This document shows, piece after piece, positions 4,022 to 54,625 of a DNA stretch of 54,703 nucleotides. Position 1 is the first letter of the stretch; each line of letters starts with the position of its first letter. The stretch comes from an uncultured Oscillospiraceae bacterium. GTDB taxonomy: Bacteria > Bacillota > Clostridia > Oscillospirales > Oscillospiraceae. The position numbers and the translations under genes were made by a program. Under the pieces are notes generated by a model. The model ran no database searches. It was not told where the DNA came from and worked only from the letters and a program-made list of their open reading frames with translations. The stretch covers positions 1 through 54,703 of the forward strand of contig CALWXF010000013.1 of the NCBI GenBank assembly GCA_944385445.1, in the 5' to 3' direction.

Positions 4022-4838
4022 CCTCCCTTGTGTAAAGGGAGGTGGCCCGGCATGATGGGGCCCCCGCCAAAGCCCAGCGCAAGCGGGTTTGGTGGGGAGA
4101 GGAGGTGCGACGGCGTGAGCGAGACTTGCCCCGTCTCTCAGGGGCAAGGCGAGGGATACACAGTCCGCACCGACGAGTCGGAGGGATTGTTCTTCTCCGA
4201 TTTCTCAGGCGCAGACCAGCGCCCCCGGTGGGGACGCTCCGCTGGGGTGACTTTCTGCCGCCAGAAAGTCACCAAAGACCGCCAAAGGCGGGGCCTTCCC
4301 CCGCCTTGTGGAATCCACCCCGCCGGTACTGGTCGGAGCGTGCACCTTTCTCTGTTCGGCCCTTGGCCCGTTTGGGTCACATGGATGAAATGGAAATTCC
4401 ATTGCATGTGCCTGCTTCTATGAAACATTGTGCTTCTACCCCCAGGGCCTTATCCTGGTGCAACGCTGTTCCCAGCTAACGGGAGCATGGCTTCCGGCGG
4501 CGGGAACACCGCTTCTCCAGGGTAGGCCCGGACATGGAAACCGCCTGGTGATAGGGCCAGCTGCCCAGGATGCCTGGTATGGTGGCAGTAACAGGAACCA
4601 CAGCAAGGGTCACGGGCCGAATTTAGACTTGACGCATGGACAGCCTCGTACCCCAGGGAGGTCCTTAGGGGGGAACGCCCTAAGCGGGTTTTGGTTCCTT
4701 TTGACCGGGCAAAAGGAACCCCCAGCGGGGAGCGTCCCCACCAGGCTGGCAAGCCTGAGCCCTGGGTGGTTAGACGGACAACCCCTCAGTCAGCCCTGCG
4801 GGCTGCCAGCTCCCCTTACACAGGGGAGCCTTTGGGGT
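4017..4838. repeat. Composite hairpin repeat, copy 1 (modules A-C-D-E-B)
   Basis: No gene is supported here. The stretch is one copy of a dispersed composite repeat. Reading left to right: module A (4022-4190, ends near GACGAGTCGGAGGGATTG), module C with the stem GGTGACTTTCTG / CAGAAAGTCACC (4246-4273), module D around 4440-4525 (GGCCTTATCCTGG and a GGCGGCGGGAAC block), module E (4628-4755) with the stem GGTTCCTTTT / AAAAGGAACC (4693-4720), and module B (about 4785-4834; CTTACACAGGGGAGCC). The same modules recur in six other intergenic regions of this window. Confidence 0.85.
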
Positions 4839-4846
4839 TGGAGCGC

Positions 4847-4879
4847 AAAAAAGCCGCCGCAGCCATACGCTGCGGCGGC
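4847..4879 (-). terminator. Rho-independent terminator of rny
   Basis: Minus-strand 11-bp perfect stem (GCCGCCGCAGC / GCTGCGGCGGC), 5-nt loop, followed by TTTTTT. It starts 14 nt after the rny stop codon. Confidence 0.92.
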
Positions 4880-4892
4880 AAATGGGTCCATA

Positions 4893-6449
4893 TTATTTTG
4901 CGTACTCGATGGCCTTGGTCTCCCGGATCAGGTTGACCTTGATCTGGCCGGGGTACTCCAGCTCGTCCTCGATCTTCTTGGCGATCTCCCGGGCGAGAAT
5001 GACCATGCGGTCCTCGGAGACTTCCTCGGGCTTGATCATCACCCGCACCTCACGTCCGGCCTGGATGGCGTAGGCCTTGTCCACTCCAGCGAAGGAGGAG
5101 GACAGCTCTTCCAGCTTCTCCAGACGCTTGATGTAGTACTCCACATTCTCTTTCCGGGCGCCGGGACGGGCGGCGGAGATGGCGTCGGCCGCCTGCACCA
5201 GGCAGGCCACGATGGTCTTGGCCTCCACGTCACCGTGGTGGGCCTCGATGGCGTGAATGACGGCCTCGCTCTCCCGGTACTTCCGGGCCAGCTCCACGCC
5301 GATCTGCACATGGGAGCCCTCCACCTCGTGGTCAATGGACTTGCCCAGGTCGTGGAGCAGTCCGGCCCGCTTGGCCTGGTTGACGTCGGCGCCGATCTCG
5401 GCAGCCAGCAGACCAGCCAGCAGAGCCACCTCGATGGAGTGGTTGAGCACGTTCTGGCCGTAGCTGGTGCGGTAGCGCTGGCGGCCCAGCAGCTTCACCA
5501 GCTCGGGGGACAGGCCGTGGACGTTGGTCTCGAACACGGCACGCTCGCCCTCGGCCTTGATGGTGGCGTCCACCTCTCGCTTGGCCTTCTCCACCATCTC
5601 CTCGATGCGAGTGGGGTGGATACGGCCGTCCAGAATCAGCTTCTCCAGGGCCAGCCGGGCAATCTCCCGGCGCACCGGGTCGAAGCAGGACACAGTGATG
5701 GCCTCGGGGGTGTCGTCGATGATGAGGTCCACCCCGGTCATGGTCTCCAGGGTACGGATGTTGCGGCCCTCACGGCCGATGATACGGCCCTTCATCTCGT
5801 CGTTGGGCAGGGGCACCACGGACACGGTGGCCTCCGCCACATGGTCAGCGGCGCAGCGCTGGATGGCCAGGGCGATCTGCTCCCGGGCGTAGGTGTCGGC
5901 CTCCTCCTTGAAGCGGGCCTGAATCTCCTTGATCTTCAGGGCCTCCTCGTGGGTGACCTCCTCCTCCAGCTGTTCAATGAGGTAGCGCTTGGCCTCCTCG
6001 CACGTCAGGCCGGAGATCTGCTCCAGCAGCTGGGTCTGACGCTCCTTGATGGTGTCCAGTTCCGCACGGTCCCGGTCCAGCTCGGCGCTGCGAGCGGCCA
6101 GCACGTCCTCCTTGCGCTCCAGGTTCTCCATCTTGCGGTCCAGATTCTCCTCTTTCTGGTTGACCCGGTTCTCCTGGCGCTGGAGCTCATTGCGGCGGTC
6201 CTTGACTTCCTGCTCAAACTCGTTGCGGGCCTTGAGGATCTCCTCTTTGGCCTCCACGGTAGCCTCACGCTTCTTGCTTTCCGCGCTCTTGATGGCCTCG
6301 TTGATGACACGACGGGCTTCCTCCTCCGCAGAGCCGATCTCACGCTCGGCCACGGCCTTGCGTCGGTGATAGCCCACAGCTGCGCCCACACCCCCGCCGA
6401 TGACCAGGGCGATGAGCGCCGCAATAACTGCAATGATAATTTCGTTCAT
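4893..6449 (-). CDS. rny: Ribonuclease Y
   Basis: 518 residues, the usual length. The N-terminal membrane anchor [20 protein letters not shown] is followed by a long charged coiled coil (about 30-200, rich in E/K/R/Q), a KH RNA-binding domain with the loop [13 protein letters not shown], and an HD phosphohydrolase domain with [12 protein letters not shown] supplying the metal-binding HD pair. It is the membrane-bound endonuclease that starts mRNA decay in many Firmicutes. Start ATG 6449 is preceded by AAGGAGG with a 9-nt gap. It is monocistronic: its own promoter lies about 240 nt upstream and a strong terminator follows. Confidence 0.97.
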
Positions 6450-6686
6450 GAATGTTCCCACACCTCCTTGATTGTTAGATTTTTTCGTACAAAAGCCAAA
6501 ATAAGACGCGATGCACCCACAGGGCACACCGCGATAATCGAAAAACCGCCCACCCAATTTGGGCGCAGTATTTGAGTGTCATATAGCTTGCCAACGTACA
6601 TATATGAAAGCACCCACATACAACAGGGTGCAGCAATTCCTCAAACAGGCGATGACTCGCCCGGTCTTCCAAAATTATCTCCTGTT

Positions 6687-6715
6687 ATTGTAAATGGAAC
6701 TGTGCAATCTGTCAA
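6687..6715 (-). promoter_or_regulatory. Sigma-A promoter of rny, giving a long 5' leader
   Basis: Minus-strand TTGACA, 17-bp spacer, TACAAT. Transcription from here would give a leader of about 230 nt before rny. The leader holds a GCACCC / GGGTGC stem and a CCCAA-A-TTGGG stem. This explains most of the 6450-6740 gap; I see no gene in it. Confidence 0.75.
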
Positions 6716-6747
6716 GAGGAATTCTGTCGCTTCCTGGTGGACACAGG

Positions 6748-6985
6748 ACAACCCCTCAGTCTGCCTGACGGCAGACAGCTCCCCTTACACAGGGGAGCCT
6801 TTGGAAATTGCCGAACCAAAAGCCTCCCTTGAGTCCCGGGAGGTGGCCCGGCGTAAGCCGGGTCGGAGGGATTGACTGCCACCATGTGTCCTGTTTTTGA
6901 CTGGCTTTGTTCGGTGGTCTGTCCCGTCAATCCCTCAGTCTGCCCTGCGGGCAGCCAGCTCCCTTTACACAAGGGAGCCTTTGGC
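6748..6985. repeat. Composite hairpin repeat, partial copy 2 (B, short A, B)
   Basis: Two B modules (6748-6805 and 6927-6984, each with CAGTCTGCC and a CTCCC(C/T)TTACACA(G/A)GGGAGCC stem) flank a shortened A module (about 6815-6873, ending GGGTCGGAGGGATTG). No coding region is supported. Confidence 0.75.
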
Positions 6986-7012
6986 TCGCCGGAGGGGAAC
7001 CATCGTGGACCC

Positions 7013-7101
7013 TTATTCCTCGTCCAACTTGAGTACTGCCATGAAAGCTTCGGAAGGCATCTGGACCGTACCCAAACTGCGCATCTTCTTCTTGCCTGCC
7101 C
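7013..7101 (-). pseudogene. Duplicated 3' end of lepA (about 29 codons)
   Basis: This stretch encodes the end of LepA again on the minus strand (…[23 protein letters not shown], stop TAA at 7013-7015). It is about 90% identical in DNA to the true lepA 3' end at 7254-7343, 243 bp away, and keeps the stop codon. There is no start or promoter of its own. It is a partial tandem duplication, with a six-hairpin array lying between the two copies. Confidence 0.85.
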
Positions 7102-7230
7102 CATGAAACCACGGTTTCATGGGGACCCCGGATTTCACTCCGGCAGGGGCAAGTGAATTGCCCCTGCCCCAAGGTTTTGCCACGGGCAAAACGCTTGTAC
7201 GGCGCACAGCGCCGCCCCACGGTGTGGGGC
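7099..7230. repeat. Array of six consecutive perfect hairpins beside lepA
   Basis: Within 132 bp six perfect inverted repeats sit end to end: CCCCATGAAACC/GGTTTCATGGGG (12 bp, 7099-7124), CCGGA/TCCGG (7128-7143), CAGGGGCAA/TTGCCCCTG (9 bp, 7144-7166), GTTTTGCC/GGCAAAAC (8 bp, 7174-7192), CGGCGC/GCGCCG (7200-7214), GCCCCAC/GTGGGGC (7 bp, 7214-7230). Loops are 2-6 nt. The stems are unrelated in sequence. No T tract follows, so they are not simple terminators. Confidence 0.85.
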
Positions 7231-7233
7231 CCC

Positions 7234-7343
7234 GGAAGGCAAAAAGAAAATGTCGTTATTCCTCGTCCAACTTGAGCACCGCCATGAAAGCTTCGGAAGG
7301 CATCTGGACCGTACCCAGGCTCCGCATTTTCTTTTTGCCTTCC
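7234..7343. repeat. 19-bp perfect inverted repeat around the lepA stop codon
   Basis: The 19 bases at 7234-7252 (GGAAGGCAAAAAGAAAATG) are the exact reverse complement of 7325-7343, which lie inside lepA. The 72 bases between hold the last codons and the stop of lepA. The lepA mRNA could fold its own 3' end into a long stem. Confidence 0.85.
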
Positions 7344-11117: not shown

Positions 11118-11127
11118 CCCAGATACA

Positions 11128-13664: not shown

Positions 13665-14778
13665 CTGTGTCTCAGGCGCAGACCGGCGCCCCTCCAGGGA
13701 CGCTCCGCTGGGTGACTTTCTGCCGCCAGAAAGTCACCAAAGACCGCCAAAGGAGGGGTCTTTCCCCTCCTTGTGGAATCCACCCTGCGGTACTGGGAGC
13801 CCCTGCGTTCTTCTCTTCCCGGCCCTTGGACTGGTGTGGTCACATGGATGGCTTTCCGTTCTAGGGTTGCCGCCTACTCCTCTGCTGGTGCATCCTTCTT
13901 CCCCCAGGGCCTTACCCTGGTGAGCCACTGTTCCCAGCGGTTGGTGGCCTGGCTTCCGGCGGCGGGAACGCCGCACACTAGGGTAAGGCCCTGGAAGGAG
14001 AGGCACCGTCTCACAGAGAAGGGGGCACTTCCCATAGACTTGCCAGGCCATCCATGTGACCCCACCGGGACCAGGGCCGACGATGGGCTTGACGCAGGGA
14101 CAGCCTCGTACCCCAGGGGGGTCCTTAGGGGGGAACGCCCTAAGTGGCTTTTCGCCCATTTTGGCCAGTCAAAATGGGCCCCAGCGGAGCGTCCCTGGAA
14201 GGGCGCTGGGTTCTGCCCAGAAAATTGGAGAAGGCCAATCCCTCCGACTCGTCGGTGCGGACTGTGTATCCCTCGCCTTGCCCCTGAGAGACGGGGCAAG
14301 TCTCGCTCACGCCGTCGCACCTCCTCTCCCCACCAAACCCGCTTGCGCTGGGCTTTGGCGGGGGCCCCATCATGCCGGGCCACCTCCCTTTGCACAAGGG
14401 AGGCTTTGAGTCTGGCAGTCACCGGAAGCCGGACTTCCGGCGGCGGGAACGCCGCACACTAGGGTAAGGCCCTGGGGATAGAAGCATTGTTTTTCAGAGA
14501 AACAGGTACTTTCTGTAGAAGTTCCACGCCATCCATGTGACCCCACCGGGACCAGGGCCGACGATGGGCTTGACGCAGGGACAGCCTCGTACCCCAGGGG
14601 GGTCCTTAGGGGGGAACGCCCTAAGCGGGTTTTGGTACCTTTTGCCCGCTCAAAAGGTACCCCCAGCGGGCAGCGTCCCCACCAGGCTGGCAAGCCGAAA
14701 CCATGGGCGGTTAGAACGTCAACCCCTCAGTCTGCTTCGCAGACAGCTCCCCTTGCACAGGGGAGGCTTTGGTCGGTC
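13665..14778. repeat. Composite hairpin repeat, copy 3 (C, D, E, inverted A, D, E, B)
   Basis: This gap contains no supported gene. Modules in order: C with GGTGACTTTCTG / CAGAAAGTCACC (around 13710-13737), D (CCAGGGCCTTACCCTGG near 13907), E with the stem GCCCATTTT / AAAATGGGC (14154-14179), inverted A (about 14237-14405), D again (14445-14490), E again with the stem GGTACCTTTT / AAAAGGTACC (14634-14661), and B (14720-14775). Two E modules 480 bp apart carry different but self-complementary stems. Confidence 0.85.
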
Positions 14779-17892: not shown

Positions 17893-18165
17893 TTAAATGC
17901 GTGGAACAGGACGAGTACCCAACTCACCCCCCCACCAGAGAGCCGCTGATATGGTGGAACAGCGGCGGGACCGGGCCTTGGGGAATATCACCTGGGAGCT
18001 GCAAACCCAACGGGCAGGTGCTGCCCCAGTAGGCTTTGCCGGGTTGGTCTCCGTTATTGGGACCCGTCGAGGGGTCTGTGCGTGGCACAGGCAACGAGAG
18101 TGGTACCGCAGAGGTTATTCACACCTTTGTCTCTCAAACATCTTGAGGGACAAAGGTGTTTTTTG
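17893..18165 (+). promoter_or_regulatory. T-box riboswitch, isoleucine-specific
   Basis: The leader has the parts of a T-box: stem I with AGAGA-type bases and a specifier loop in GGGAATATCACC, where the codon ATC (17987-17989) reads isoleucine; a conserved T-box sequence GAGAGTGGTACCGCAG (18096-18111) whose TGGTACC side binds the NCCA end of uncharged tRNA; and a terminator with a 17-bp stem from ACACCTTTGTC to GACAAAGGTGT followed by TTTTTT (18121-18165). Uncharged tRNA-Ile would favour the antiterminator and switch ileS on. Confidence 0.93.
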
Positions 18166-21021: not shown

Positions 21022-21060
21022 AAAACACCCGGGAAATGATACCATTTCCCGGGTGTTTTT
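21022..21060 (+). terminator. Rho-independent terminator of ileS
   Basis: 17-bp perfect stem beginning AAAACACCCGGGAAATG with a 4-nt loop and a T tail. Most of this hairpin is present again at 27112-27148, at the left end of the second copy of the duplicated cassette. Confidence 0.92.
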
Positions 21061-21109
21061 ATGCCACAGGGCAGATACCCGCTAGGAACGCCGGGTATAG
21101 AAACCCGCC

Positions 21110-21138
21110 GTGACAATGTCTGGCATCTGTGGTATGCT
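21110..21138 (+). promoter_or_regulatory. Promoter of sigma/anti-sigma cassette 1
   Basis: GTGACA, 17-bp spacer, TATGCT. An inverted repeat ATACCCG / CGGGTAT lies about 12 bp upstream (21076-21099) and could be an operator or part of a hairpin. It looks like a sigma-A site; a promoter read by the encoded sigma factor cannot be told apart by eye. Confidence 0.6.
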
Positions 21139-21182
21139 CATTGTAAAAGAGACGGTCAAAGAGAGAGGCTGGTGAAGAAGAC

Positions 21183-21722
21183 GTGGAGCGACAGGAGCTC
21201 TTTGAAACGCTGTATTTGGAGATGTATCACAAGCTGGTGGGCTACGCCGCACGAGGTCTGGAGGGCAACCTGGACCTGGCGGAGGAGGCGGTGCAGGACA
21301 CCTTCCGCATTTTCTGGGTCAAGTACGACCAGGCAGCCGCTTCCCCCAATGTACGGGGGTGGATTGTAAATACCCTCAAGGGAGAAATTCTCAACATTCG
21401 GAGGACCCGAGCCAGGATGGCCAATCTGGTGGCCCAGCTCTCCGCCACCCCGCAGGTGGTAACAGTGGCCCGGGATGAGCACGGGCTGGATGTGGAATAC
21501 GGCGACCTCGGGAAAGACCCCGACTATCAACTGCTCTGTGAGTTCGCCCTGGAACAGCGGACGGTGAAGGAACTGGCCCAGAGCCGGGGTATTACCATTC
21601 CCGCCTGCAAAAAGCGGTTGGAGCGGGCCCGAAAACGGCTGAGAAAATATTTTGAAGAAATGGACGGAAGCGGTCACCTTTCCGTCACATCCGAACGTAC
21701 TATGAAAGAAAGGGGGTCATGA
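21183..21722 (+). CDS. RNA polymerase sigma-70 family (ECF-like) factor, copy 1
   Basis: 179 residues with GTG start. Region 2 is at about residues 7-70: YHKLVGYAARGLEGNLDLAEEAVQDTFRIFW, with the AEEAVQDTF helix usual for region 2.2. Region 4 is at about 115-160: EFALEQRTVKELAQSRGITIPACKKRLERARKRLRKYF, ending in the recognition helix. It lacks a clear sigma-1.1 or region 3 domain, as in ECF factors. Its stop overlaps the anti-sigma start (ATGA). The protein is identical to the one encoded at 27271. It should direct RNA polymerase to a small regulon, probably including the downstream ABC or lipoprotein genes. Confidence 0.9.
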   Translation: MERQELFETLYLEMYHKLVGYAARGLEGNLDLAEEAVQDTFRIFWVKYDQAAASPNVRGWIVNTLKGEILNIRRTRARMANLVAQLSATPQVVTVARDEHGLDVEYGDLGKDPDYQLLCEFALEQRTVKELAQSRGITIPACKKRLERARKRLRKYFEEMDGSGHLSVTSERTMKERGS

Positions 21723-27085: not shown

Positions 27086-27197
27086 TATCTGTCTAAGGCA
27101 AATTAAAAAGCAACACCCGGGAAATGATACAATTTTCCGGGTGTTTTTATGCCACAGGGCAGATACCCGCTAGGAACGCCGGGTATAGAAACCCGCC

Positions 27198-27226
27198 GTG
27201 ACAATGTCTGGCATCTGTGGTATGCT
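27198..27226 (+). promoter_or_regulatory. Promoter of sigma/anti-sigma cassette 2
   Basis: Same bases as the copy-1 promoter: GTGACA, 17-bp spacer, TATGCT, with the same upstream ATACCCG / CGGGTAT inverted repeat. Confidence 0.6.
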
Positions 27227-27270
27227 CATTGTAAAAGAGACGGTCAAAGAGAGAGGCTGGTGAAGAAGAC

Positions 27271-27810
27271 GTGGAGCGACAGGAGCTCTTTGAAACGCTG
27301 TATTTGGAGATGTATCACAAGCTGGTGGGCTACGCCGCACGAGGTCTGGAGGGCAACCTGGACCTGGCGGAGGAGGCGGTGCAGGACACCTTCCGCATTT
27401 TCTGGGTCAAGTACGACCAGGCAGCCGCTTCCCCCAATGTACGGGGGTGGATTGTAAATACCCTCAAGGGAGAAATTCTCAACATTCGGAGGACCCGAGC
27501 CAGGATGGCCAATCTGGTGGCCCAGCTCTCCGCCACCCCGCAGGTGGTAACAGTGGCCCGGGATGAGCACGGGCTGGATGTGGAATACGGCGACCTCGGG
27601 AAAGACCCCGACTATCAACTGCTCTGTGAGTTCGCCCTGGAACAGCGGACGGTGAAGGAACTGGCCCAGAGCCGGGGTATTACCATTCCCGCCTGCAAAA
27701 AGCGGTTGGAGCGGGCCCGAAAACGGCTGAGAAAATATTTTGAAGAAATGGACGGAAGCGGTCACCTTTCCGTCACATCCGAACGTACTATGAAAGAAAG
27801 GGGGTCATGA
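27271..27810 (+). CDS. RNA polymerase sigma-70 family (ECF-like) factor, copy 2
   Basis: 179 residues, identical in protein and apparently in DNA to the factor at 21183-21722, including the GTG start and the ATGA overlap with the next gene. Two identical factors would serve one common regulon, so signals sensed by either partner would be merged. Identity over the whole gene points to a very recent duplication or to continuing gene conversion. Confidence 0.9.
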   Translation: MERQELFETLYLEMYHKLVGYAARGLEGNLDLAEEAVQDTFRIFWVKYDQAAASPNVRGWIVNTLKGEILNIRRTRARMANLVAQLSATPQVVTVARDEHGLDVEYGDLGKDPDYQLLCEFALEQRTVKELAQSRGITIPACKKRLERARKRLRKYFEEMDGSGHLSVTSERTMKERGS

Positions 27811-34599: not shown

Positions 34600-35340
34600 T
34601 TCCAGCCTGGTTTTACGCTCCGCTGGGGCCCCTCTAGCCCTCCCAGAGGTGCGCTGGCAGACAGGCTCCAAACCGCTTGTGGAAGTCTTGTTCTCCTGTG
34701 GTTCCTTACGCAGGCTTGCCAGCCTGGTGGGGACGCTCCCCGCTGGGGGTTCCTTTTGCTCGGTCAAAAGGAACCAAAACCCGCTTAGGGCGTTCCCCCC
34801 TAAGGACCCCCCTGGGGTACGAGGCTGCCCCTGCGTCAGGCCTAAGTTCGGCCCGTCACCCTTGCTGTGGCCCCTGTTTGTGCCACCACACCAGGCCCCC
34901 TGGGCAGCTGGCCCTATGGCTGGGTGGTTTCCACCTCCGGGCCTCCTCTGGTGGAGCGGTGTTGCCACCGCCGTCAGCCAGGCTACCGATCGCTGGGAAC
35001 AGCGGCTCACCAGGGTAAGGCCCTGGCGGTAGAAGCACAATTGTTCCACAGAAGTATGCGCTTTCTGTGGAAGTTCCATGCAGCCCATGTGCCCCCACCG
35101 GGCCAAGGGCCGAACAGAGAAAGGCGCACTCTCCACCCAGTACCGCGGGGTGGATTCCACAAGGCGGGGGAAGGCCCCGCCTTTGGCGATTCTTTCCCCT
35201 CTTTCTCATCGCTGAGAAAGGGGGCCCAGCGGAGCGTCCCACCCGGCTGGCAAGCCTGAATCAGGTCGTTCAGAAGAACACCTCTTCCGTCTGCCTAACG
35301 ACAGACAGACCCCCTGACTCAGGAGAGCCTTTGGGCTGCA
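34600..35340. repeat. Composite hairpin repeat, copy 4 (inverted E, D, C, B remnant)
   Basis: No gene is supported. Order is E (34716-34835, stem GGTTCCTTTT / AAAAGGAACC at 34748-34775), D (about 34930-35035, GGGCAGCTGGCCC and a CAGGGTAAGGCCCTGG part), C (35135-35240, stem CTTTCTCA / TGAGAAAG extended by CCCC / GGGG) and a worn B module (35277-35335). Orientation is opposite to copy 1. Confidence 0.82.
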
Positions 35341-40904: not shown

Positions 40905-41550
40905 AGGCACAGACTAGCGCCCCCGCCGGGGACGCTCCCGGCCAAAGGCTCCCCCTGAGTCAGGGGTTGTCCGTCTAACCGTCCCTGTTTCCGGCTTGCC
41001 AGCCTGGTGGGGACGCTTCCCGCTGGGGGTTCCTTTTGACTGGCCAAAAGGAACGAAAAGCCACTTAGGGCGTTCCCCCCTAAGGACCTCCCTTAGGGTA
41101 CGAGGCTGCCCCTGCGTCAAGGCTATGTTCGGCCCGTCACCCTTGCTGTGGCGCCTGGTCATGCCACCACACCAGGCTACCTTGGGCAGCCGGCCCTACA
41201 ACCAGGCAGTTTCCACATCCGGGCCTACCCTGGAAGAGCGGCGTTCCCGCCGCCGGAAGCCGGGCCCCCGATAGCTGGGAACAGCGGCACACCAGGGTAA
41301 GGCCCTGGGGGCAGAAGGATTATGTTTCAGAAAAGTAGGTATGTTTGGTAGAAGTTCCATGCTATCTATGTGACCCCACCAGTCCAAGGGCCGAAAATAG
41401 GAAGGTGCATACTCCACCCAGTACCGCGGGGTGGATTCCACAAGGCGGGGGAAGGCCCCGCCTTTGGTGGTCTTTGGTTCCTTTCTGGCAGCAGAAAGGA
41501 ACCCCCAGCGGGGAGCGCGTTCCCCAGGCTTACAAGCCTGAAAAAGCCCC
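40905..41550. repeat. Composite hairpin repeat, copy 5 (inverted B, E, D, C)
   Basis: No gene is supported. B remnant near 40944-40975 (AAAGGCTCCCCCTGAGTC), E (40985-41130, stem GGTTCCTTTT / AAAAGGAAC at 41028-41054), D (about 41225-41315, GGGAACAGCGG and CCAGGGTAAGGCCCTGG), C (41400-41510, stem GGTTCCTTTCTG / CAGAAAGGAACC at 41476-41503). The C stem here differs from copies 1 and 3 at matched positions on both arms. Confidence 0.82.
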
Positions 41551-44561: not shown

Positions 44562-45945
44562 ACAGCTGTCTGCCGTCGGGCAGACGGAGGGGTTGTCCGT
44601 CTAACCGCCCAAAGTTTAGGCTTGCCAGCCAGGGTTTGCTCCGCAGGGTGACTTTCTGCCGCCAGAAAGTCACCAAAGACCGCCAAAGGCGGGGCCTTCC
44701 CCCGCCTTGTGGAATCCACCCCGCCGGTACTGGGTGGAGGGTGCGTCTTTCTCTGTTCGGCCCTTGACTCGGTAGGGTCACTTAGATGGATTAGAAATTC
44801 TACAGGTCATGCCTGCTTCTCTGGCCATGTGTACTTCTACCCCCAGGGCCTTACCCTGGTGCACCGCTGTTCCCAGCGGGCGGGGGATTGGCTTCCAGTG
44901 ACTGCCAGACGCAAAGCCTCCCTTGTGTAAAGGGAGGTGGCATGGCATGATGGGGCCCCCGCCAAAGCCCAGCGCAAGCGGGTTTGGTGGGGAGAGGAGG
45001 TGCAACGGCGTGAGCGAGACTTGCCCCGTCTCTCAGGGGCAAGGCGAGGGATACACAGTCCGCACCGACGAGTCGGAGGGATTGTCTGCCACCTGGGTAA
45101 CGTCAACCCCTCAGTCTGCCCCACGGGCAGACAGCTCCCCTTACACAGGGGAGCCTTTGAGCCGGGCAGTCACCGAGAGCCTGGCTCCCGGCGGCGGGAA
45201 CGCCGCTGCTCCAGGGTAGGCCCGGACATGAAAACCGCCAGGCCGTAGGGCCAGCTGCCCAGGGTGGCCTGGTGTGGTGGCAGTACCAGGAGCCACAACA
45301 AGGGTCACAGGCCGAACTGAGACTTGACGCATGGACAGCCTGATACCCCAGGGGGATCCTTAGGGGGGAACGCCCTAAGTGGCTTTTCGTCCATTTTGGC
45401 CAGTCAAAATGGACCCCAGCGGAGCGTCCCCACCAGGCTGGCAAGCCGGAACCCTGGGTGGTTAGACGGACAACCCCTCAGTCTGCCCCACGGGCAGACA
45501 GCTCCCCTTACACAGGGGAGCCTTTGGCCGGAAGTGACCCGGAACATTGCCGCATTTCTTGGGTTGCTGAGTGCTTGCCCCTCCCGAATCCCCCAGAGCA
45601 AGGCCAGGGCAGCCACGGGCCGGGCAAGCCACGGCCCCTACCACAGCAACACAGGAAGTGCGGCAAAAGCCTCCGGCGGCGGGAACGCCGCTGCTCCAGG
45701 GTAGGCCCGGACATGGAAACCGTCCAGCCATAGGGCCAGCTGACCAGGGTGGCCTGGTGTGGTGGCAGTGACAGGAGCCACAGCAAGGGTACCGGGCCGA
45801 ATTTAGGCTTGACGCAGGCCCAGCCTCGTACCCCAAGGGGGTACTTAGGGGGGAACGCCCTAAGCGGGTTTTGGTTTCTTTTGCCCGCTCAAAAGAAACC
45901 CCCAGCGGGGAGCGTCCCCACCAGGCTGGCAAGCCTAAGAAGGGG
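44562..45945. repeat. Composite hairpin repeat, copy 6 (B, C, D, A, B, D, E, B, D, E)
   Basis: The largest copy, with no supported gene. C stem GGTGACTTTCTG / CAGAAAGTCACC near 44646-44673; A module 44917-45086; B modules near 44571, 45108-45165 and 45474-45530; D blocks near 44838, 45188 and 45675 (each with GGCGGCGGGAACGCCGC or a close form); E modules at 45326-45450 (stem GTCCATTTT / AAAATGGAC, 45389-45414) and 45809-45935 (stem GGTTTCTTTT / AAAAGAAACC, 45873-45900). The D-E-B run is repeated in tandem with different stems. Confidence 0.85.
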
Positions 45946-46049: not shown

Positions 46050-49000
46050 TTAGTTGCCACGGCGGCGGCGCACCACAGTAGCGGTGCTCAGCACCACCAC
46101 AGCGGCGCCCAGAACCACCACATACAGCATCAGCTGGGCGGAGTCGCCGGTCTGAGCGGGCTTCTCACCCTCGGGCTTCTCAGTGGCGTCGGGCTTGTCG
46201 GTGCCCTCAGGCTTGTCGGTGGCGTTGGGAGTCTCGCCGCTCTCGGTGGTCAGGCCACGGATGGCGGTGTCCAGCTGGGTCACAGCGGCGTCCACCGTCT
46301 TCTGGTCGTCCTCAGACAGGGTGGCGTCAGCCATCACAGCCTGGGCATTGGCCAGAGCGGTGCGGAAGGTGGCCACGGACTGGGCGGTGTAGCCGGTGAG
46401 GTCCATGCCCTCGGCCTTGCCGATGAGGCCTTCCAGGATGTCCTTGTTGGCCTTGAAGCGCTGGGCCAGGATGGCATTGAGCAGGGCCTCGGTGGCGCTG
46501 TCCACGTCCTCCTGCATGGCGTCGCCGTCACCGGCCACGTCCTGAGCGGTCTTGAGAGCGTCCACCAGCTGCTGCCAGTTGGCCTCCACATACTTGTCGG
46601 CCTCGTCCATCATGGCCTCAGCACGGTCGATGACCAGGTTGAGCATGGTCTTGTCGCCCTGAGTCAGACCCAGACCCCAGATACCGTTGAGCAGGTTGTC
46701 CCAAGCGGTGTTCACATCCTCCTGGGTGGCGTCGGCGTCAGCCAGAACGGTCTTGGCGTTGGCCAGAGCGTCCTCGAAGGCCTTCTTGGCGGTGTCGGTA
46801 ACACCCTCGGTGGACAGATTCTCGGCATAGGCGATGGTCTTCTCCAGCAGCTCCTTGTTCACTTCGCTGGGCTCGGGAGTGGGCTCAGGAGTGGGCTCGG
46901 GAGTGGGCTCAGGAGTGGGCTCGGGAGTAGGCTCGGGAGTGGGCTCAGGAGTGGGCTCGGGAGTAGGCTCGGGAGTGGGCTCGGGAGTGGGCTCCACGGG
47001 AGGCTCAGCGGCCTCCTTGAGCTCGATGACCAGCTTGTCCAGCTGGGGAGACTTCTTGTCGGGACCGGTGAACACCAGAGTGCCGGCGCCGGCCTTGGTG
47101 ATCTCGATCTCGAAGGTGACGGTGTGGGTCTGAGTGGCGCTGTCGCCAGCACCGGCAGTGACGGTGCCGGACTCCACCTTGCCGTCGGGCTCGCTCCAGG
47201 CCAGGGAGTTGTTGGGATCGCCGCTGCGATAGGTAGCGGTGACGGTGTAGATACCAGCAGTCTCAGCCTCATAGGGGAAGGAAATGGTATCCTGCTGGTT
47301 CAGGCAGTTGATGAACTCGCCGTGGCTGGCCCAGTCGGCCTTGGCAATCTGGAGGGGCCAAGCCTCGTTCTCGCCAGTATTCTTCAGAATGGCAAACTCA
47401 GCTTCCAGAGTCACGGACACGCCCTTCTCGTTGGGGAAGTAGAAGGGATCTTCGGTGGTGTACTGCTCACGCTCCACCAGAGCGGCCAGAGCGGTCTCAA
47501 TGGCGGTCTTAGCCTCAGCCATGGCGGCCACGGAGGGGTTCTCCTCCTTCAGCAGCTCGGCGGCATCAGCGATGGCCTGGGCATAGGCATCCCAGCCGCT
47601 GGTGTACCACTCGCCCAGCTTGCCGTCGGCGGCGTCCACCAGAGCCTGGAGGTCGTCGCGGCTCACTTCGGGAGCGAAGGTCACTTCAATGGTGGTCTCG
47701 CTGGTGACGCTGTCCAGGGTGTAGGTGTTGTCGGTGACGGTGACGGTCTCACCGTTGACCACCACGGACTCCACACGGTAGCCAGCATCAGGGGTGATGG
47801 TGAGGGTGAAGGACTCGCCCTCGGTGACAGCGGTGGTGCCAGCGGGGGAGACGGTGCCGCCCTCGTTGGCAGTCACGGTGACGTTGCAGGTCTGGTAGTC
47901 GATGTTCTTGGGGGTGATGACCAGCTTGTCCAGCTGGGGAGACTTCTTGGCGGGGCCGGTGAACACCAGGGTGCCAGCGCCAGCCTCGGTGACCTCGATG
48001 TCAAAGGTGACGGTGTGGGTGGCGGTGGCGCTGTCCCCGGCGCCAGCGGAGACGGTGCCGGAGGTGATCTTACCGTCCACCTCGCTCCAAGCCAGGGAGT
48101 TGTTGGTGTCGCCGCTGCGATAGGTGGCGGTGACGGTGTAGGTGCCGGTGCGGTCGGCCACATAGGGGAAGGAGATGGTGTCGTTCTGGTTCAGGCAGTT
48201 GACGAACTCGCCGTGGCTGGCCCAGTCGGCCTTGGCGATCTGGAGGGGCCAAGCCTCGTTCTCGCCGGTGTTCTTGAGAATGGCGAACTCAGCTTCCACG
48301 GTGTAGGTGGAGTTGGGCTGCCAGGGGAAGGGCACGGGGTCGTCGGCGGAGTACTGCTCACGCTCCACCAGAGCGCCCTTGGCGGCCTGGATGGCGGCCA
48401 CAGCCTGGGCCATAGCCTCCTGGTCGGCGTCGGTGGCAGCCAGCAGCTCCTTGCCCTGAGCCACGGCCTGGGCGTAGGCGTCCCAGCCGGAGGCGTACCA
48501 CTCGCCCAGAGTGCCCTCGGCCTCATTCACCAGGGCCTCCAGCTGCTCACGAGAGGCGGAGTCCATATCCTTGATGGTGACGGTGGCGATGGGGTTGAAG
48601 CCCAGAATGACGTCCTTGTCGGCGGAGGACAGCTCGATGGTGAACTCCAGGTCGCCGGTGATGTTGGTGTTGCGGCGGGTCTCCACAGGAGCGGTTTTCT
48701 CGGTCTCGCCGGGCTGGAAGGTGACCTCAGTCACCAGGTCAGAGTTGAAGTCGCCCTGAACGGCGGAGCCGGGGTTGGGGGACAGCTTCACGGTGACAGG
48801 CTCTTCACTGGTGCCGCCCACGCGGACCAGCTTGACGTCCATGCGCTGCTCCTCGTTCATGGTGTAGCGGCTCTCCTCGATGCCGATCATGCCCTTGCCG
48901 CCGTTGTTGATGGTGTAGGCGGACTCAATGCCGATGGCCTTGGAGGTCACTCGCAGCTCCAGGGTGTGCTCGCCATCTTTCAGGTCTTCGGAGACGAAGA

Positions 49001-50885
49001 TGTACTGACCCAGGGCACGGGCGGAGGCGTTGGTGTCAATGGTGGACACCTTCTCGCCGTCGATGTAGATGTCAGCCTTGCCGTGGTTGGGGTCCTTGGT
49101 ACCCAGCAGGTAGATCTTGGAGCCGGTGAAGTTGACGGTGAAGGTGGCACCGGCGTTGGCCCACTTGTTGGTGCCGCCGATGAACTGGGAGCCGGTCTCG
49201 TCGGTCCAGCCGCTGGAGAACCGGAAGGCCCCATTCTTGATGTCGATGACGTCCATGCCGTCGGGGGCAGCGCCGGAGAGCTCAAAGCCCTCGCTGGCCT
49301 TGTACACGCCCACCTCGCTGATCATGGGCACCTTGCCGTCGGGGGTGGACACGGTGATGCGCACCTGGTCGCCCCGGACAGCGCCGGTGCGCACCAGACG
49401 CTTGGCGCCGATGGTCTGGCCGGACTGCATCTCGTGCCACTCGCCGCTGGCATCGCGATACTCCACTTTGTAGGAGTTGATGCGCTGGCCGTTCTGGATG
49501 GCCTCTTCCACGCTCACCACGTCGAAGCTCTTCACGCCGCCCAGGTCGATGAGCAGGGTGCCCTCGTTGGTGCCGTCCTGGGTGGTCCAGTAGGTGGCGT
49601 CGTTGCCGTCGATGGTGTTGCCGGGCTTGTAGGCCACGTCATTGCCACGGACGTTGGTGGCCTGCACGGAGGCGGCCAGGTTCTTCTTAAAGGTCTCCTG
49701 GACGTTCTGGCCGAACTCGGTCACACGGTCCAGAATGGCCTGATCCACGGTGCCCTGGTTGTTGGGGGGCACGTTGAGCAGCAGCGTGCCGTTGTGGCCC
49801 ACGGAGCGGAAGTACATCTCGCCCAGGGCGGCAATGGTCTTGGGGGTGTTCTTCTGAGTGCCCCAGAACCAGCCGGAGGTGATGCGGGCATCACACTCAG
49901 GCACGGTCCACTGGTTGCCGTTTTCCAGGCCCACGGTGTAGCCGCCCTGAGAGCCGCTGTTGATGGTGTTGTTGTCGTAGTTCACCATGGACTTGGACCA
50001 GGTGTCATCGGCGGCGTAGCCGTTCTCGTTGCCGATCCAGCGCACGGTGGTGTAGGCCTCGGCGCCGAAGAGCATACAGTCGGCCTCATAGCCGGCCTTC
50101 TTGCCCTCGTTGCTCTGAATGGTGTTAAACCACTTCTGGAAGTCGTACTCCTGGGCGTTGGCGCCGGAGCCCTTGGCGCCGTCCATCCACACCTCGACGA
50201 AGTGGCCGTCGTTGCCGTACTTGTCGTTGCCCAGGATCTCCTGGAGCTGGTTGTTGTAGTACTCGTTGTAGTCCAGCACGTCGTTTTCCTTGCTGGTGGG
50301 GTTGCCGTTGGCGTCATAGTAGCCGTAGCTGTCGTCGTGGATATCCCAGGGGGACAGATACAGGCCCATGTTCATGTCGTACTTGGTGCAGGCCTCGGAC
50401 AGCTCAGCCAGAATGTCGCCCTGGCCGTTTTTGTAGCTGGTGTTGGCCACATCGTACTCGGTGTAGGCGCTGTTCCAGATACAGAAGCCGTCGTGGTGCT
50501 TGGCGGTGACGATGAGCATCTGGAAGCCGGCGTCCTTCAGAGTCTTGACCATGGTGTCAGCATCGAAGTCGGTCTCCAGCTTGAAGATCTCGTCGGGGGT
50601 CTTGTCCCCGTAGTGCTCACCCCACTCGATCTCGTTGAAGGTGTTGGGGCCGAAGTGGCAGAATGCGGACAGCTCTGCCTTCTGATACCAATACTGATTG
50701 GCGTTGGGCAAAACCTCGTCCGGGGTGGGTGCTGGGGTGGCGTTGTCGGTGAGAGACTCATCCCCGATGTAGGTGGGCTCTGCGGCCCAGGCTGCCGGGA
50801 AACTGGCGCCTACCATGGTAGAGGCCAGCATGGTCCCCGCCAAAGCCAGAGCCAAACCGCGCTTAGCAGGACGTTTTCCTTTCAT
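46050..50885 (-). CDS. Secreted, cell-wall-anchored multidomain alpha-L-fucosidase (GH29)
   Basis: 1611 residues. Signal peptide to about residue 35. GH29 catalytic domain about 55-430, with TAKHHDGFCIW (127-137) and VWMDGAKG, where Asp235 is the likely nucleophile. Then an F5/8C (CBM32-like) domain (about 430-550), a beta-sandwich with GSKIYLLGTKDPNHGKADIYIDG, a Calx-beta-like domain, a FIVAR helical repeat (about 777-845), a CBM6/35-like domain (about 853-993), a Big/Flg_new-type repeat, a second FIVAR and a second, nearly identical CBM (1148-1291), a (TPEP)n linker, three more FIVAR-like repeats, and a sortase-type end PAQTGD + membrane span + RRRRGN. It should release fucose from host mucin or milk-type glycans at the cell surface. 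Confidence 0.93.
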   Translation of the reverse strand: MKGKRPAKRGLALALAGTMLASTMVGASFPAAWAAEPTYIGDESLTDNATPAPTPDEVLPNANQYWYQKAELSAFCHFGPNTFNEIEWGEHYGDKTPDEIFKLETDFDADTMVKTLKDAGFQMLIVTAKHHDGFCIWNSAYTEYDVANTSYKNGQGDILAELSEACTKYDMNMGLYLSPWDIHDDSYGYYDANGNPTSKENDVLDYNEYYNNQLQEILGNDKYGNDGHFVEVWMDGAKGSGANAQEYDFQKWFNTIQSNEGKKAGYEADCMLFGAEAYTTVRWIGNENGYAADDTWSKSMVNYDNNTINSGSQGGYTVGLENGNQWTVPECDARITSGWFWGTQKNTPKTIAALGEMYFRSVGHNGTLLLNVPPNNQGTVDQAILDRVTEFGQNVQETFKKNLAASVQATNVRGNDVAYKPGNTIDGNDATYWTTQDGTNEGTLLIDLGGVKSFDVVSVEEAIQNGQRINSYKVEYRDASGEWHEMQSGQTIGAKRLVRTGAVRGDQVRITVSTPDGKVPMISEVGVYKASEGFELSGAAPDGMDVIDIKNGAFRFSSGWTDETGSQFIGGTNKWANAGATFTVNFTGSKIYLLGTKDPNHGKADIYIDGEKVSTIDTNASARALGQYIFVSEDLKDGEHTLELRVTSKAIGIESAYTINNGGKGMIGIEESRYTMNEEQRMDVKLVRVGGTSEEPVTVKLSPNPGSAVQGDFNSDLVTEVTFQPGETEKTAPVETRRNTNITGDLEFTIELSSADKDVILGFNPIATVTIKDMDSASREQLEALVNEAEGTLGEWYASGWDAYAQAVAQGKELLAATDADQEAMAQAVAAIQAAKGALVEREQYSADDPVPFPWQPNSTYTVEAEFAILKNTGENEAWPLQIAKADWASHGEFVNCLNQNDTISFPYVADRTGTYTVTATYRSGDTNNSLAWSEVDGKITSGTVSAGAGDSATATHTVTFDIEVTEAGAGTLVFTGPAKKSPQLDKLVITPKNIDYQTCNVTVTANEGGTVSPAGTTAVTEGESFTLTITPDAGYRVESVVVNGETVTVTDNTYTLDSVTSETTIEVTFAPEVSRDDLQALVDAADGKLGEWYTSGWDAYAQAIADAAELLKEENPSVAAMAEAKTAIETALAALVEREQYTTEDPFYFPNEKGVSVTLEAEFAILKNTGENEAWPLQIAKADWASHGEFINCLNQQDTISFPYEAETAGIYTVTATYRSGDPNNSLAWSEPDGKVESGTVTAGAGDSATQTHTVTFEIEITKAGAGTLVFTGPDKKSPQLDKLVIELKEAAEPPVEPTPEPTPEPTPEPTPEPTPEPTPEPTPEPTPEPTPEPTPEPSEVNKELLEKTIAYAENLSTEGVTDTAKKAFEDALANAKTVLADADATQEDVNTAWDNLLNGIWGLGLTQGDKTMLNLVIDRAEAMMDEADKYVEANWQQLVDALKTAQDVAGDGDAMQEDVDSATEALLNAILAQRFKANKDILEGLIGKAEGMDLTGYTAQSVATFRTALANAQAVMADATLSEDDQKTVDAAVTQLDTAIRGLTTESGETPNATDKPEGTDKPDATEKPEGEKPAQTGDSAQLMLYVVVLGAAVVVLSTATVVRRRRGN
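46869..46995. repeat. Tandem 12-bp repeat encoding the TPEP linker
   Basis: About ten tandem units of a 12-mer (GGCTCGGGAGTG or GGCTCAGGAGTG) encode PTPEPTPEP on the minus strand. Such linkers span the wall; the unit count is likely to vary between strains. Confidence 0.92.
47030..47420. repeat. Intragenic direct repeat, CBM copy 2 of the fucosidase
   Basis: Over 90% identical in its best part (about 47323-47400) to 47915-48305, at a spacing of about 885 bp. It covers the carbohydrate-binding module with NTGENEAWPLQIAKADWASH. Confidence 0.88.
47915..48305. repeat. Intragenic direct repeat, CBM copy 1 of the fucosidase
   Basis: Partner of 47030-47420. High DNA identity shows a recent internal duplication of the FIVAR-CBM unit, or ongoing conversion between the two. 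Confidence 0.88.
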
Positions 50886-51107
50886 GTATATTCCTTCCTT
50901 TCCTTTGTGCGGTGCATTGTGAGATACGCACCGTTTTTCACTTATATCATACCATACCCCACCCACCATCGGTACATCTTCTTGTGCGAAATCCCAATTT
51001 TGTGAGGTTTGGCAGATTGGGACCTAATTTTTTGTAAAAATTACACAACTTTTCTTTGAATAACAGGATTTTCCTTTGCCCGGATAAATTTTTGCATTCT
51101 GCACAAC

Positions 51108-51142: not shown

Positions 51143-51177
51143 CAGCCGACGAACGTTTCTATGTCCCTTTCACATGC

Positions 51178-51206
51178 TTGACACATGTTCTCACGCCGTG
51201 TATACT
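51178..51206 (+). promoter_or_regulatory. Sigma-A promoter of the antitoxin RNA
   Basis: TTGACA, 17-bp spacer, TATACT: near consensus, with no protein gene downstream on this strand. Confidence 0.85.
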
Positions 51207-51212
51207 GATAGT

Positions 51213-51303: not shown

Positions 51304-51380
51304 TTGAGCTGAAACAGCCCGATAATACCCACGATCAGCAGTCCAATCTGCACCAGGTCAGAAAACGTGACATACTCCAT
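51291..51380 (-). CDS. Holin-like small toxin (type I toxin-antitoxin)
   Basis: 29 residues: MEYVTFSDLVQIGLLIVGII followed by GLFQLNKRK. One membrane span and a short basic tail, the pattern of the putative holin-like toxin family (Hol_Tox) related to TxpA/BsrG. A very strong ribosome site (AGGGGGG, 5 nt before the ATG) and its own good promoter (51475-51503) support expression. The stop codon lies inside the stem that ends the antisense RNA. Such peptides depolarise the membrane when overproduced; a role for this one is inferred from the family. Confidence 0.82.
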   Translation of the reverse strand: MEYVTFSDLVQIGLLIVGIIGLFQLNKRK

Positions 51381-51474
51381 GAGTGCCCCCCCTTTCAACC
51401 AGGGGGCAAGGAAGCACCCCCTTATGTAGATGAAGGGGGAACAACCGCCAAATGTGTGGCAGCACCTTACCTGG

Positions 51475-51503
51475 AGTATAGCAGACCTTGCCGCCTGTTG
51501 CAA
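51475..51503 (-). promoter_or_regulatory. Sigma-A promoter of the toxin mRNA
   Basis: Minus-strand TTGCAA, 17-bp spacer, TATACT. The leader to the toxin start is about 90 nt and contains a GGGGGTGCTT / AAGG…CCCC-rich stretch able to fold and hide the ribosome site. Confidence 0.8.
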
Positions 51504-51508
51504 GACAG

Positions 51509-51551
51509 CGCCCGTACCTGCCCCAATGTGAGGCAGGTACGGGCGTTTTTT
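51509..51551 (+). terminator. Hairpin at the nrdD 3' end (T tract on plus strand)
   Basis: 14-bp perfect stem CGCCCGTACCTGCC / GGCAGGTACGGGCG with a 9-nt loop. The run of Ts is on the plus strand; on the minus strand, where nrdD is transcribed, the As precede the stem and no T tract follows. It may stabilise the nrdD 3' end while stopping plus-strand transcripts from entering nrdD antisense. Confidence 0.7.
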
Positions 51552-53616: not shown

Positions 53617-53672
53617 AGGCCACGCTCCTCTCTGTGTATCTGCGCTGGCCGCCCGGTGGGCGGTGCTCTTCT

Positions 53673-53701
53673 ATGATACCACTGGCATGGAGCAAATTCA
53701 A
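53673..53701 (-). promoter_or_regulatory. Sigma-A promoter of nrdD
   Basis: Minus-strand TTGAAT, 17-bp spacer, TATCAT. The -35 overlaps the first NrdR box. The leader has a GCCGCCC / GGGCGGT-like stem. Confidence 0.78.
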
Positions 53702-53742
53702 TATATATTGTATCTATATTTTATCGACACAATATATTGTGC
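53698..53742. promoter_or_regulatory. Pair of NrdR boxes
   Basis: ACACAATATATTGTGC (53727-53742) matches the NrdR-box consensus almost fully; TCAATATATATTGTAT (53698-53713) is a weaker second box. Their centres are about 30 bp apart, close to three helical turns, as is usual for NrdR, and the weaker one covers the -35. Confidence 0.78.
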
Positions 53743-53757
53743 GTTATAGTGGCAAAA

Positions 53758-54625
53758 CACAGCCATGGCCAAAGGCTCCCCTGTGTAAGGGGAGCTGTCT
53801 GCGAAGCAGACTGAGGGGTTGTCCGTCTAACCACCCCTGTTTCAGGCTTGCCAGCCTGGTGGGGACGCTCCGCTGGGGGCCATGGTTCCGCCATGCCCAA
53901 AGGCTCCCCTGTGTAAGGGGAGCTGTCTGCGAAGCAGACTGAGGGGTTGTCCGTCTAACCACCCCTGTATCCGGCTTGCCAGCCTGGTGGGGACGCTACC
54001 CGCTGGGGGTGCCTTTTGAGCGGGCAAAAGGCACCAAAACCCGCTTAGGGCGTTCCCCCCTAAGAACCCCCCTGGGGTACCAGGCTGGCCTTGCGTCAAG
54101 TCTAGGTTCGGCCCTGGTCCCGGTGGGGTCACATAGATGGCCTGGCAAGTTTATGGGAAGTGCCCCCTTCTCTGTGAGTCGGTGCCTCTTCTTCCAGGGC
54201 CTTACCCTGGTGTGCGGCGTTCCCGCCGCCGGGGGCCTGGCTATCAGCAACTGAAATCAGTTGCATACCAGGGTGAGGTCCTGGCGGTAGAAGAATGTAC
54301 CAACAGAGGAGTAGATACAAACCATAGAACAACAAGCCATCTATGTGACCCCACCAGGCCAAGGACCGAAAAGAGGAAAACGCACACCCACCCAGTACTG
54401 CGGGGTGGATTCCACAAGGCGGGGGAAGGCCCCGCCTTTGGCGATTCTTTCCCCGATTTCTCATCGGGGAGAAATCGGGCCCAGCGGAGCGTCCCCGGCT
54501 GGGGCGCTGGTTTCCGCCAAGGAAATCGGAGGAGTGTAATCCCTCCATCAGCCCGGCGGCTGACAAGCCTGAGAAGGGGACCATAGAAGGATAAGCCTTT
54601 GACAAAAGGAAAAGCCCGGAGGAAG
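53758..54625. repeat. Composite hairpin repeat, copy 7 (B, B, E, D, C, A remnant)
   Basis: No gene is supported. A unit of about 131 bp (B plus GTTGTCCGTCTAACC and GCTTGCCAGCCTGGTGG) is tandemly duplicated (53761-53895, 53892-54000). E follows (stem GGTGCCTTTT / AAAAGGCACC, 54008-54035), then D (54195-54275), C (54390-54495; stem CCCGATTTCTC / GAGAAATCGGG) and part of A. The end (54562-54625) matches the sequence leading into the fucosidase terminator. Confidence 0.85.

Follow-up and report, generated by a model that had tools for sequence, protein, structure and literature searches.

Dispersed intergenic repeats with inverted end units, a tetranucleotide 5' of a hairpin and compensatory changes within this hairpin are known from the REPIN and REP-BIME systems with RAYT (TnpA-REP) (PMC3116915, PMC8266576). 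In REP elements the tetranucleotide at the hairpin foot is GTAG in most cases and a Y1 protein reads it, and at the ends of IS200/IS605 elements a tetranucleotide at the hairpin foot also takes part in base pairing (PMC8266576). Intrastrand triplex motifs (ITxF/TMECO) are abundant bacterial repeats in which a single strand can form a triplex, a pyrimidine class being among them (PMC4666352), and H-type pseudoknots with a triple helix have been described in the SAM-V and guanidine-III riboswitches (PMC6061858, PMC5696562) and in the CptIN antitoxin RNA (PMC4627078). We describe here an element of about 500 base pairs (bp) which resembles, or is predicted to resemble, these systems in part. It is dispersed through the genome of an uncultured Oscillospiraceae bacterium (home genome G000; 2.15 Mb, 91% complete) and was analyzed from one of its contigs, CALWXF010000013.1 of assembly GCA_944385445.1, the 54,703 nucleotides (nt) of which are called the window.

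The terminal module found at both ends of this mobile-like element is proposed to fold as a pseudoknot with a triple helix, to be kept by selection and to work as a single folded strand, RNA being favoured; we put the probability of this reading at about 0.6. Read from the inside of the element outwards, the strand would form an inner hairpin and, directly after it, an H-type pseudoknot in which four bases (N4) would pair with the loop of the terminal hairpin, the resulting helix stacking on the stem. A pyrimidine linker of 4-5 nt would occupy the major groove of the upper stem and face its A/G-rich strand, giving 4-5 layers of T.A-T or C.G-C triples, and the lower stem would be the distance crossed by the linker. 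The order of the segments (N4, linker, 5' strand of the stem, loop with the complement of N4, 3' strand of the stem) predicts an H-type pseudoknot with its first linker in the major groove, the geometry being deduced from this order. Sequence comparison shows the complementarity of the arms, that of N4 and loop, the mirror relation of the linker, the inverted ends, the dispersal and the presence or absence of the element at orthologous sites. The sequences give strong evidence that a single strand folds with a pseudoknot and a layer of base triples, and the fold itself appears quite probable. To our knowledge, covariation in base triples is rarely seen in natural sequences.

Covariation in the stem, the predicted N4:loop helix and the linker

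A first-pass annotation had described eight dispersed hairpins with 8-nt loops, and hairpins are present at all these positions (4693, 14154, 14634, 45389 and 45873 on the plus strand; 34748, 41028 and 54008 on the minus strand). Their arms are complementary and change in step as claimed, a property borne out on a far larger set of modules, and the outer mismatch noted in the 41028 copy is a C.C at the outermost stem position, which is common (111/252 parsed modules). The loop size had to be revised to 6 nt closed by one further G-C pair, and the range 4628..54100 under which the hairpins had been entered corresponds to eight separate intergenic copies and not to a single feature. The palindrome CCTTAGGGGGGAACGCCCTAAG beside the hairpin gave 57 matches with at most 2 mismatches in the home genome and none in the reversed control; the recurrence of the hairpin is beyond chance. 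A perfect stem of 10-12 bp was observed in 54 of 55 distinct copies, despite about ten forms of the arms, the sole imperfect stem being that of L022, which joins the arms of two variants. L022 and L064 are both chimeric hairpins, each combining arms of two variants, as if copies had recombined inside the loop.

The counts given over 252 modules refer to those parsed out of 259. Of the seven others, absent from these counts, two (L001 and L124) seem to have this fold with the linker shifted, three (L102, L145 and L164) are cut or rearranged, one (L167) contains two additional bases and one (L182) differs in its loop. Distinct sequences were counted, and overlapping loci may still hold near-identical copies. 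Covariation was tested by column shuffles, by controls with slid partners and on a tree of element interiors, the first two in 33 distinct 36-mers (linker TTTT; 28 modules of an exception class, described below, were left out) and 39 distinct 39-mers, with five modules of 40 nt in neither set. Over the stem arms and N4:loop positions, 96.0% of the cells were paired in the 36-mers and 94.6% in the 39-mers, against 87.1% and 72.4% in shuffles. The covariation scores were 0.232 and 0.586, against 0.068 and 0.185, and none of 500 shuffles scored as high; they dropped to 0.019-0.147 when the partners were slid by one column.

N4 pairs with the first four bases of the loop. In the first set (186 of 188 modules parsed, two unparsed), 143 modules were fully complementary, and in the larger set full pairing was found in 197/252, three pairs in 28/252 and fewer in 27/252. 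When 75 distinct rows were considered, exception classes included, 274 of 300 positions were paired, against 187.9 ± 7.7 and at most 220 in 10,000 permutations. Five fully paired classes occur within the genus (CGGG/CCCG, CGAT/ATCG, TGGC/GCCA, CGGC/GCCG and TGGG/CCCA) and six only in other genera (CCGC/GCGG, TCGC/GCGA, GCGA/TCGC, GTGC/GCAC, GCGG/CCGC and TCAG/CTGA). The putative second helix of an H-type pseudoknot, between the upstream strand and the loop, is supported by this covariation, 28 of the 252 modules being exceptions.

A second possible pairing, in which an outer AGCG would pair, on the other strand, with a loop that ends in CGCT, was noted for many of the loops with a final CT and was not adopted as general; CT makes up the last two loop bases in 84/252 modules. 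On the opposite strand of many right ends, for example at 45865-45910, this AGCG:CGCT pairing would compete with that of N4 and loop.

The linker is the exact mirror of the pyrimidine tract of the stem in 223/252 modules and equals it in length in 224/252. Such a mirror is a parallel Hoogsteen match to the purine strand (TTTT with AAAA, TTTTT with AAAAA, TCTTT with AGAAA). The linker/tract combinations were TTTT/TTTT (103 modules), TCTTT/TTTCT (100), CTTT/TTTCT (28), TTTTT/TTTTT (20) and TCTTT/TTTTT (1). In the 39-mers, the sole varying linker column matched its purine partner in 39 of 39 distinct rows, with 8 changed on both sides, whereas the match was 83.6% in shuffles and none of 500 was as high, for a column pair chosen after the pattern had been seen. 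The exact mirror and the column test support a linker Hoogsteen-matched to the purine strand, as in a major-groove triplex. Two sets of linker and tract, both mirrored exactly, were found with each of the lower stems GGTGAC, CGTCTA and CCCCGA, and GGTTCC and GGTTTC occur both with TTTT/TTTT and with the exception class CTTT/TTTCT.

The in-step changes of the arms had been ascribed either to selection on a folded RNA or single-stranded DNA or to a copying mechanism that repairs the arms. The pairing of N4 and loop and the mirrored linker, neither of them described in that annotation, add support to the former. Template switching copies in the inverted sense, so the mirror match is not explained by the copying alternative; copying errors can restore the arms but cannot produce a mirror, for which selection on the folded strand would account. 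On these grounds we infer the three-dimensional fold, the selection keeping it and one folded strand as the working form. The fact that the parts change in step suggests that a factor of the cell may read the shape and not the sequence.

On the tree of 95 distinct interiors whose right module parsed, the linker changed 11 times, the tract 11 times and both jointly 11 times, whereas N4 changed 23 times, the loop 37 times and both jointly 38 times. Whole end cassettes have probably been exchanged between copies.

Elements of the window and their distribution

Most modules are the right end of the repeat, which measures about 475 bp between outer module edges as judged from a coverage plot and an alignment of 53 full-length copies. 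The left end is a module of the same kind in inverted orientation, and both ends face outwards. From the inside outwards, each end consists of the inner hairpin (for example CTTAGGG..CCCTAAG) with the pseudoknot module directly after it, namely N4, pyrimidine linker, stem, loop and stem, and an outer CCCAGCGGAGCG or CCTGCGGAGC. In some elements the palindromic inner hairpin is present at both ends, 332-377 bp apart, and the interiors vary between element families. In the loci examined, paired ends were separated by about 330-400 bp between inner motifs, though two in the home genome were wider apart (about 730 and 770 bp). The modules of the window are listed below, with N4 before the slash and the loop bases after it.

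4246..4281, minus strand: element 1, left module, CGGT-CTTT-GGTGAC-TTTCTG with loop GCGG; exception class, no full N4:loop pairing
4664..4684, plus strand: element 1, inner hairpin of the right end, CTTAGGGGGGAACGCCCTAAG
4685..4720, plus strand: element 1, right module, N4 CGGG, linker TTTT, lower stem GGTTCC, tract TTTTG, loop ACCG+GG; three of four N4:loop pairs
13711..13746, minus strand: element 2, left module, exception class GCGG
14124..14180, plus strand: element 2, inner hairpin and right module, TGGC/GCCA, linker TTTT, stem CGCCCA
14605..14661, plus strand: element 3 (right half only), inner hairpin and terminal module, CGGG/CCCG, stem GGTACC
34748..34804, minus strand: element 4, inner hairpin and right module, CGGG/ACCG, stem GGTTCC
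35187..35225, plus strand: element 4, left module, CGAT/ATCG, linker TCTTT, tract TTTCT, lower stem CCCCTC/GGGGGC with one T.G pair
41028..41084, minus strand: element 5, inner hairpin and right module, TGGC/GCCA, linker TTTT, stem CGTTCC
41468..41503, plus strand: element 5, left module, exception class TGGT..GCAG
44647..44682, minus strand: element 6, left module, exception class GCGG
45359..45415, plus strand: element 6, inner hairpin and right module, TGGC/GCCA, stem CGTCCA; inserted repeats in the interior
45844..45900, plus strand: element 7 (right half only), inner hairpin and terminal module, CGGG/CCCG, stem GGTTTC
54008..54064, minus strand: element 8, inner hairpin and right module, CGGG/CCCG, stem GGTGCC
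54442..54480, plus strand: element 8, left module, CGAT/ATCG, linker TCTTT, tract TTTCT, stem CCCCGA

A coding capacity of the element was rejected: each of the six frames contains an internal stop in 49-53 of the 53 full-length copies, no frame being open in all of them, and the four open reading frames over element 1 gave no Pfam match. The blocks of the window adjoin genes such as RNase Y, HemZ and NrdD, and the named genes, from 9 proteins scanned, also include ObgE and IleS. Elements lie mostly 3' of genes; among 46 judged sites in the home genome (7/53 were not judged, and the open reading frame calls are crude), 26 were tandem, 15 convergent and 5 divergent.

Presence and absence of the element were compared at two sites. 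3' of RNase Y, it was found in G000, in G010 (where a different gene follows), in G020 and in G024 (where the contig ends inside it), and is absent from G003 and G035 (same next gene) and from G012 (another next gene). G001 retains there, by eye, an apparent decayed end module and should represent a deletion, not an empty site, while G018 was not readable. At the hemZ-rplU site, both G000 and G020 have the element, its end modules and interior differing between the two, and G018 lacks it. A clean insertion site with target duplication was not seen at the orthologous sites compared.

The inner palindrome, with one mismatch allowed, was found in 7 of 60 genomes including the home genome, all belonging to one genus (37 of its genomes searched). 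Named sequence records containing the palindrome come from Pseudoflavonifractor (among them the cultured Pseudoflavonifractor sp. An44 and P. capillosus An386a), Candidatus Enterenecus avicola and uncultured Oscillospiraceae. A first mirror-tract pattern matched 24/295 genomes of the order and its reversed control 6. Among the loci obtained outside the genus with this and a second mirror-tract pattern, 43 gave 44 matches, and in 29 of these the stem was 8 bp or longer. Eleven of these 29 have a four-base match between loop and upstream sequence under a loose rule; by eye, L197, L204, L240, L244, L248, L249 and L253 have the module arrangement and the other four look like chance matches in T-rich runs. 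Most remaining matches outside the genus either lack a hairpin or are a different one, located beside ribosomal or transfer RNA genes. An unanchored scan for stem plus N4:loop pairing over 275 sequences (922 kb) returned 285 distinct patterns, a number that includes alternative registers, both strands and some unrelated single matches; it returned none in 400 kb of base-shuffled sequence scanned on one strand. A longer mirror-tract pattern had no match in viral contigs.

Similar modules were carried in other genera by six genomes (G361, G427, G435, G279, G068 and G173) from three family groups (f1, f9 and f20). By eye, they follow the same plan of inner hairpin, N4, linker and hairpin, with new N4:loop pairs:

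L240: CCGC/GCGG and TCAG/CTGA
L244 and L249: TCGC/GCGA and CCGC/GCGG
L248: GCGA/TCGC
L194: GTGC/GCAC
L197: GCGG/CCGC
L204: TGGC/GCCA at both ends of a different element

Hairpins of the form GTTTTCTTTGC..ACTTTCTT..AAGAAAGT stand beside 5S ribosomal RNA-like and transfer RNA genes in several genomes belonging to the order (L188, ~200-240; L203, ~410-450; L213, ~1500-1545). Their linker mirrors the stem tract, but the loop is of four bases and no N4:loop pairing is present; they are possibly a related triplex hairpin.

The window contains other repeats. A second family of palindromic repeats of about 60 bp, CAACCCCTCAGTCTGCC..GGCAGACAGCTCCCCTTACACAGGGGAGCCTTTG, lies at 4776-4834, 6745-6803, 6925-6983, 14713-14771, 45101-45159 and 45468-45526, and its inner hairpin seems by eye to vary in paired fashion. 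A repeat of about 180 bp, GCCTCCCTTGTGTAAAGGGAGG ... GAGTCGGAGGGATTG, lies at 4010-4190 and 44905-45085 (96% identical) and, by eye, on the opposite strand near 14236-14410; it is inserted inside element 6 and beside other elements. A direct duplication of 300 bp (21024-21323 and 27112-27411) is 99% identical over a distance of 6.1 kb, a 12-bp tandem repeat (46844-47030) lies inside a reading frame of 1639 residues on the minus strand (46050-50969), and a T-box leader (17893-18137) is found at the start of the isoleucine tRNA ligase gene.

Weighing the proposed fold and its alternatives

Several observations weigh against the proposed fold or the strength of its support. The parsing pattern itself required a pyrimidine linker and a six-position lower stem. 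Two of the five covariation measures are not clearly above shuffles and add little: pairs changed on both sides numbered 6 in the 36-mers and 11 in the 39-mers, and 8 and 113 of 500 shuffles had as many; for the number of pair types, 245 and 332 shuffles did so. The exception classes CGGT/CGGC..GCGG and TGGT..GCAG comprise 28/252 modules, 27 of them on L-type ends, and 4 of the 14 parsed modules of the window; their loop is of 4 nt (GCGG or GCAG), their linker is one base short, and N4 pairs with the loop at no more than two positions in 26 of them and at three in 2. Another 18/252 modules are CGGG/ACCG, with a standing mismatch at one position of the pseudoknot. Wobble pairs on the proposed strand amount to 6 G.T cells versus 3 A.C (36-mer and 39-mer sets, chimera left out), a difference which favours this strand weakly and does not prove the strand or the polymer.

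The linker has few variants, and every label changes less often on the interior tree than when shuffled (linker 11 changes, against a mean of 20.9 and a minimum of 17), so part of the linked association reflects descent. Exchange of whole cassettes, which may account for many of the events, would mimic repeated covariation and, as the interiors are themselves mosaic, the changes are not all independent. Outside the genus, a second mirror-tract pattern matched 19/150 genomes of the family and its reversed control 23; since its matches were no commoner than those of the control, which also describes a terminator-like hairpin, the second pattern alone is no evidence there. The modules of other genera were fetched by patterns requiring the mirror, so only their N4:loop pairing counts as independent evidence. 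Finally, no trans-acting protein or autonomous element was found, the longer gaps between unpaired ends not having been searched for transposase genes.

The main alternative, which we consider less probable, is that the same triplex pseudoknot acts as single-stranded DNA, formed either during lagging-strand synthesis or in an intermediate of transposition, and is recognised by a recombinase that moves the elements, as are the hairpins of IS200/IS605 and REP transposases. The inverted ends, the dispersal and the presence or absence at orthologous sites would fit with it, and so would pairs that are nearly all Watson-Crick with few G.T. Compensatory hairpin changes are also shown by REPINs, themselves elements of DNA (PMC3116915), and pyrimidine triplexes are possible in DNA as in RNA (PMC4666352). 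Against it, neither a target duplication nor an autonomous copy was seen, and the distribution of the transposase does not favour it. Y1 transposases occur in 16/42 genomes of the genus, but Y1_Tnp (PF01797) was not found in five of the seven carriers (G000, G018, G024, G009 and G020; assemblies 86-99% complete), while G001 has two strong matches and G010 a weak one with an internal stop; mobility driven by Y1/RAYT was rejected for this reason. A short linker over a stem of 10-12 bp should also be better accommodated by A-form RNA, with its narrow and deep groove, than by B-form DNA.

RNA is our best guess for the working form. Folding of the whole element as RNA was tried for the choice of the strand and rejected: both strands gave about the same value (-334 and -332) with G.T exceeding A.C on each and, as they fold alike, it says nothing on the strand. 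If RNA is the working form, an element 3' of a gene would provide read-through transcripts with a compact knot leading to protection or pausing; the knot could otherwise serve a factor that spreads the element in trans.

An ordinary bidirectional terminator or hairpin stabilising messenger RNA, located in intergenic repeats and with the other relations due to coincidence, is improbable: the position 3' of most genes would suit it, but the T-rich tract lies ahead of the hairpin and not after it, and termination has no use for the relations of N4 with the loop and of the linker with its mirror. Least probable of all is the absence of any selection on the fold, with template switching at quasi-palindromes keeping the arms complementary and sets moving as blocks in recombination, for although the chimeric L022 and L064, the differing end modules at hemZ-rplU and module classes scattered over the interior tree (if less than at random) would be expected from it, a process making inverted copies only cannot create or keep the linker mirror, the linker and tract are split by the lower stem yet present matching alternatives on GGTGAC, CGTCTA and CCCCGA, and eleven N4:loop classes are fully paired, six of them only in other genera.

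The folded single strand being preferred, a wider proposal can be made more tentatively. Clostridia may carry undescribed dispersed elements whose ends are set by shape, an inner hairpin plus a triple-helix pseudoknot with covariation in the Watson-Crick pairs, the pseudoknot pairs and the base triples alike, and are read in RNA or single-stranded DNA by a factor of the host or the element, the outcome being either spread of the elements or the shielding or stopping of transcripts, while the end sequences drift among compatible classes. The matches of the second mirror-tract pattern outside the genus, which do not exceed its reversed control, make this proposal somewhat less probable. The repeat family offers hundreds of natural variants of one compact predicted triple-helix pseudoknot and could be used as a test set on the recognition of such folds. 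Should the fold serve a mobile element as its handle, DNA ends would be marked in a new way; should it work in the tails of messenger RNA, bacteria would have a counterpart to the triple-helix stabilisers of RNA that are known elsewhere.

Comparison with known systems

In gathering-threshold searches of Rfam, no family matched the modules, the only matches being the T-box of the window and a glycine riboswitch in L066, and a permissive search of 4200-4900 gave weak matches only (best E 1.4); a known Rfam family was rejected, no covariance model matching the modules. The combination of features was not found described in the open-licence literature searched, and the earlier statement that no element of such form is known is consistent with both searches.

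The element shares inverted end units with REPINs, but no conserved GTAG-like tetranucleotide and no RAYT/Y1 in the genome were found. Unlike the REP foot, N4 varies (CGGG, TGGC, CGAT, CGGC, TGGG and others) in step with the loop, a linker mirroring the stem tract stands between N4 and stem, and the elements reach about 500 bp. The hairpins of IS200/IS605 lie on one strand, and a Y1 transposase source, as a non-autonomous derivative of this family would use, was not found in the home genome. In IS200/IS605 the guide pairs with the cleavage site (PMC8266576), whereas here N4 pairs with the loop of its own hairpin and the ends are inverted.

The ITxF/TMECO motifs require 6-15 triplets and loops of 1-6 nt, in contrast to the 4-5 triplets and the pseudoknot helix proposed here, which fall below the minimum of 6, and the word pseudoknot is absent from the main text of the ITxF paper (PMC4666352). 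Type III antitoxins (ToxI/CptI), the repeats of which are named for ToxIN, form a tandem array (PMC8860590), whereas the copies described here are dispersed through the genome. The triple-helix pseudoknot RNAs differ from the present modules, in which no conserved bases of a ligand site were seen and which occur in many dispersed copies at both ends of an element. With regard to the fold, the triple helix of SAM-V lies in the major groove (PMC6061858), and the strand order predicted for the modules is that of an H-type pseudoknot with a triple helix.

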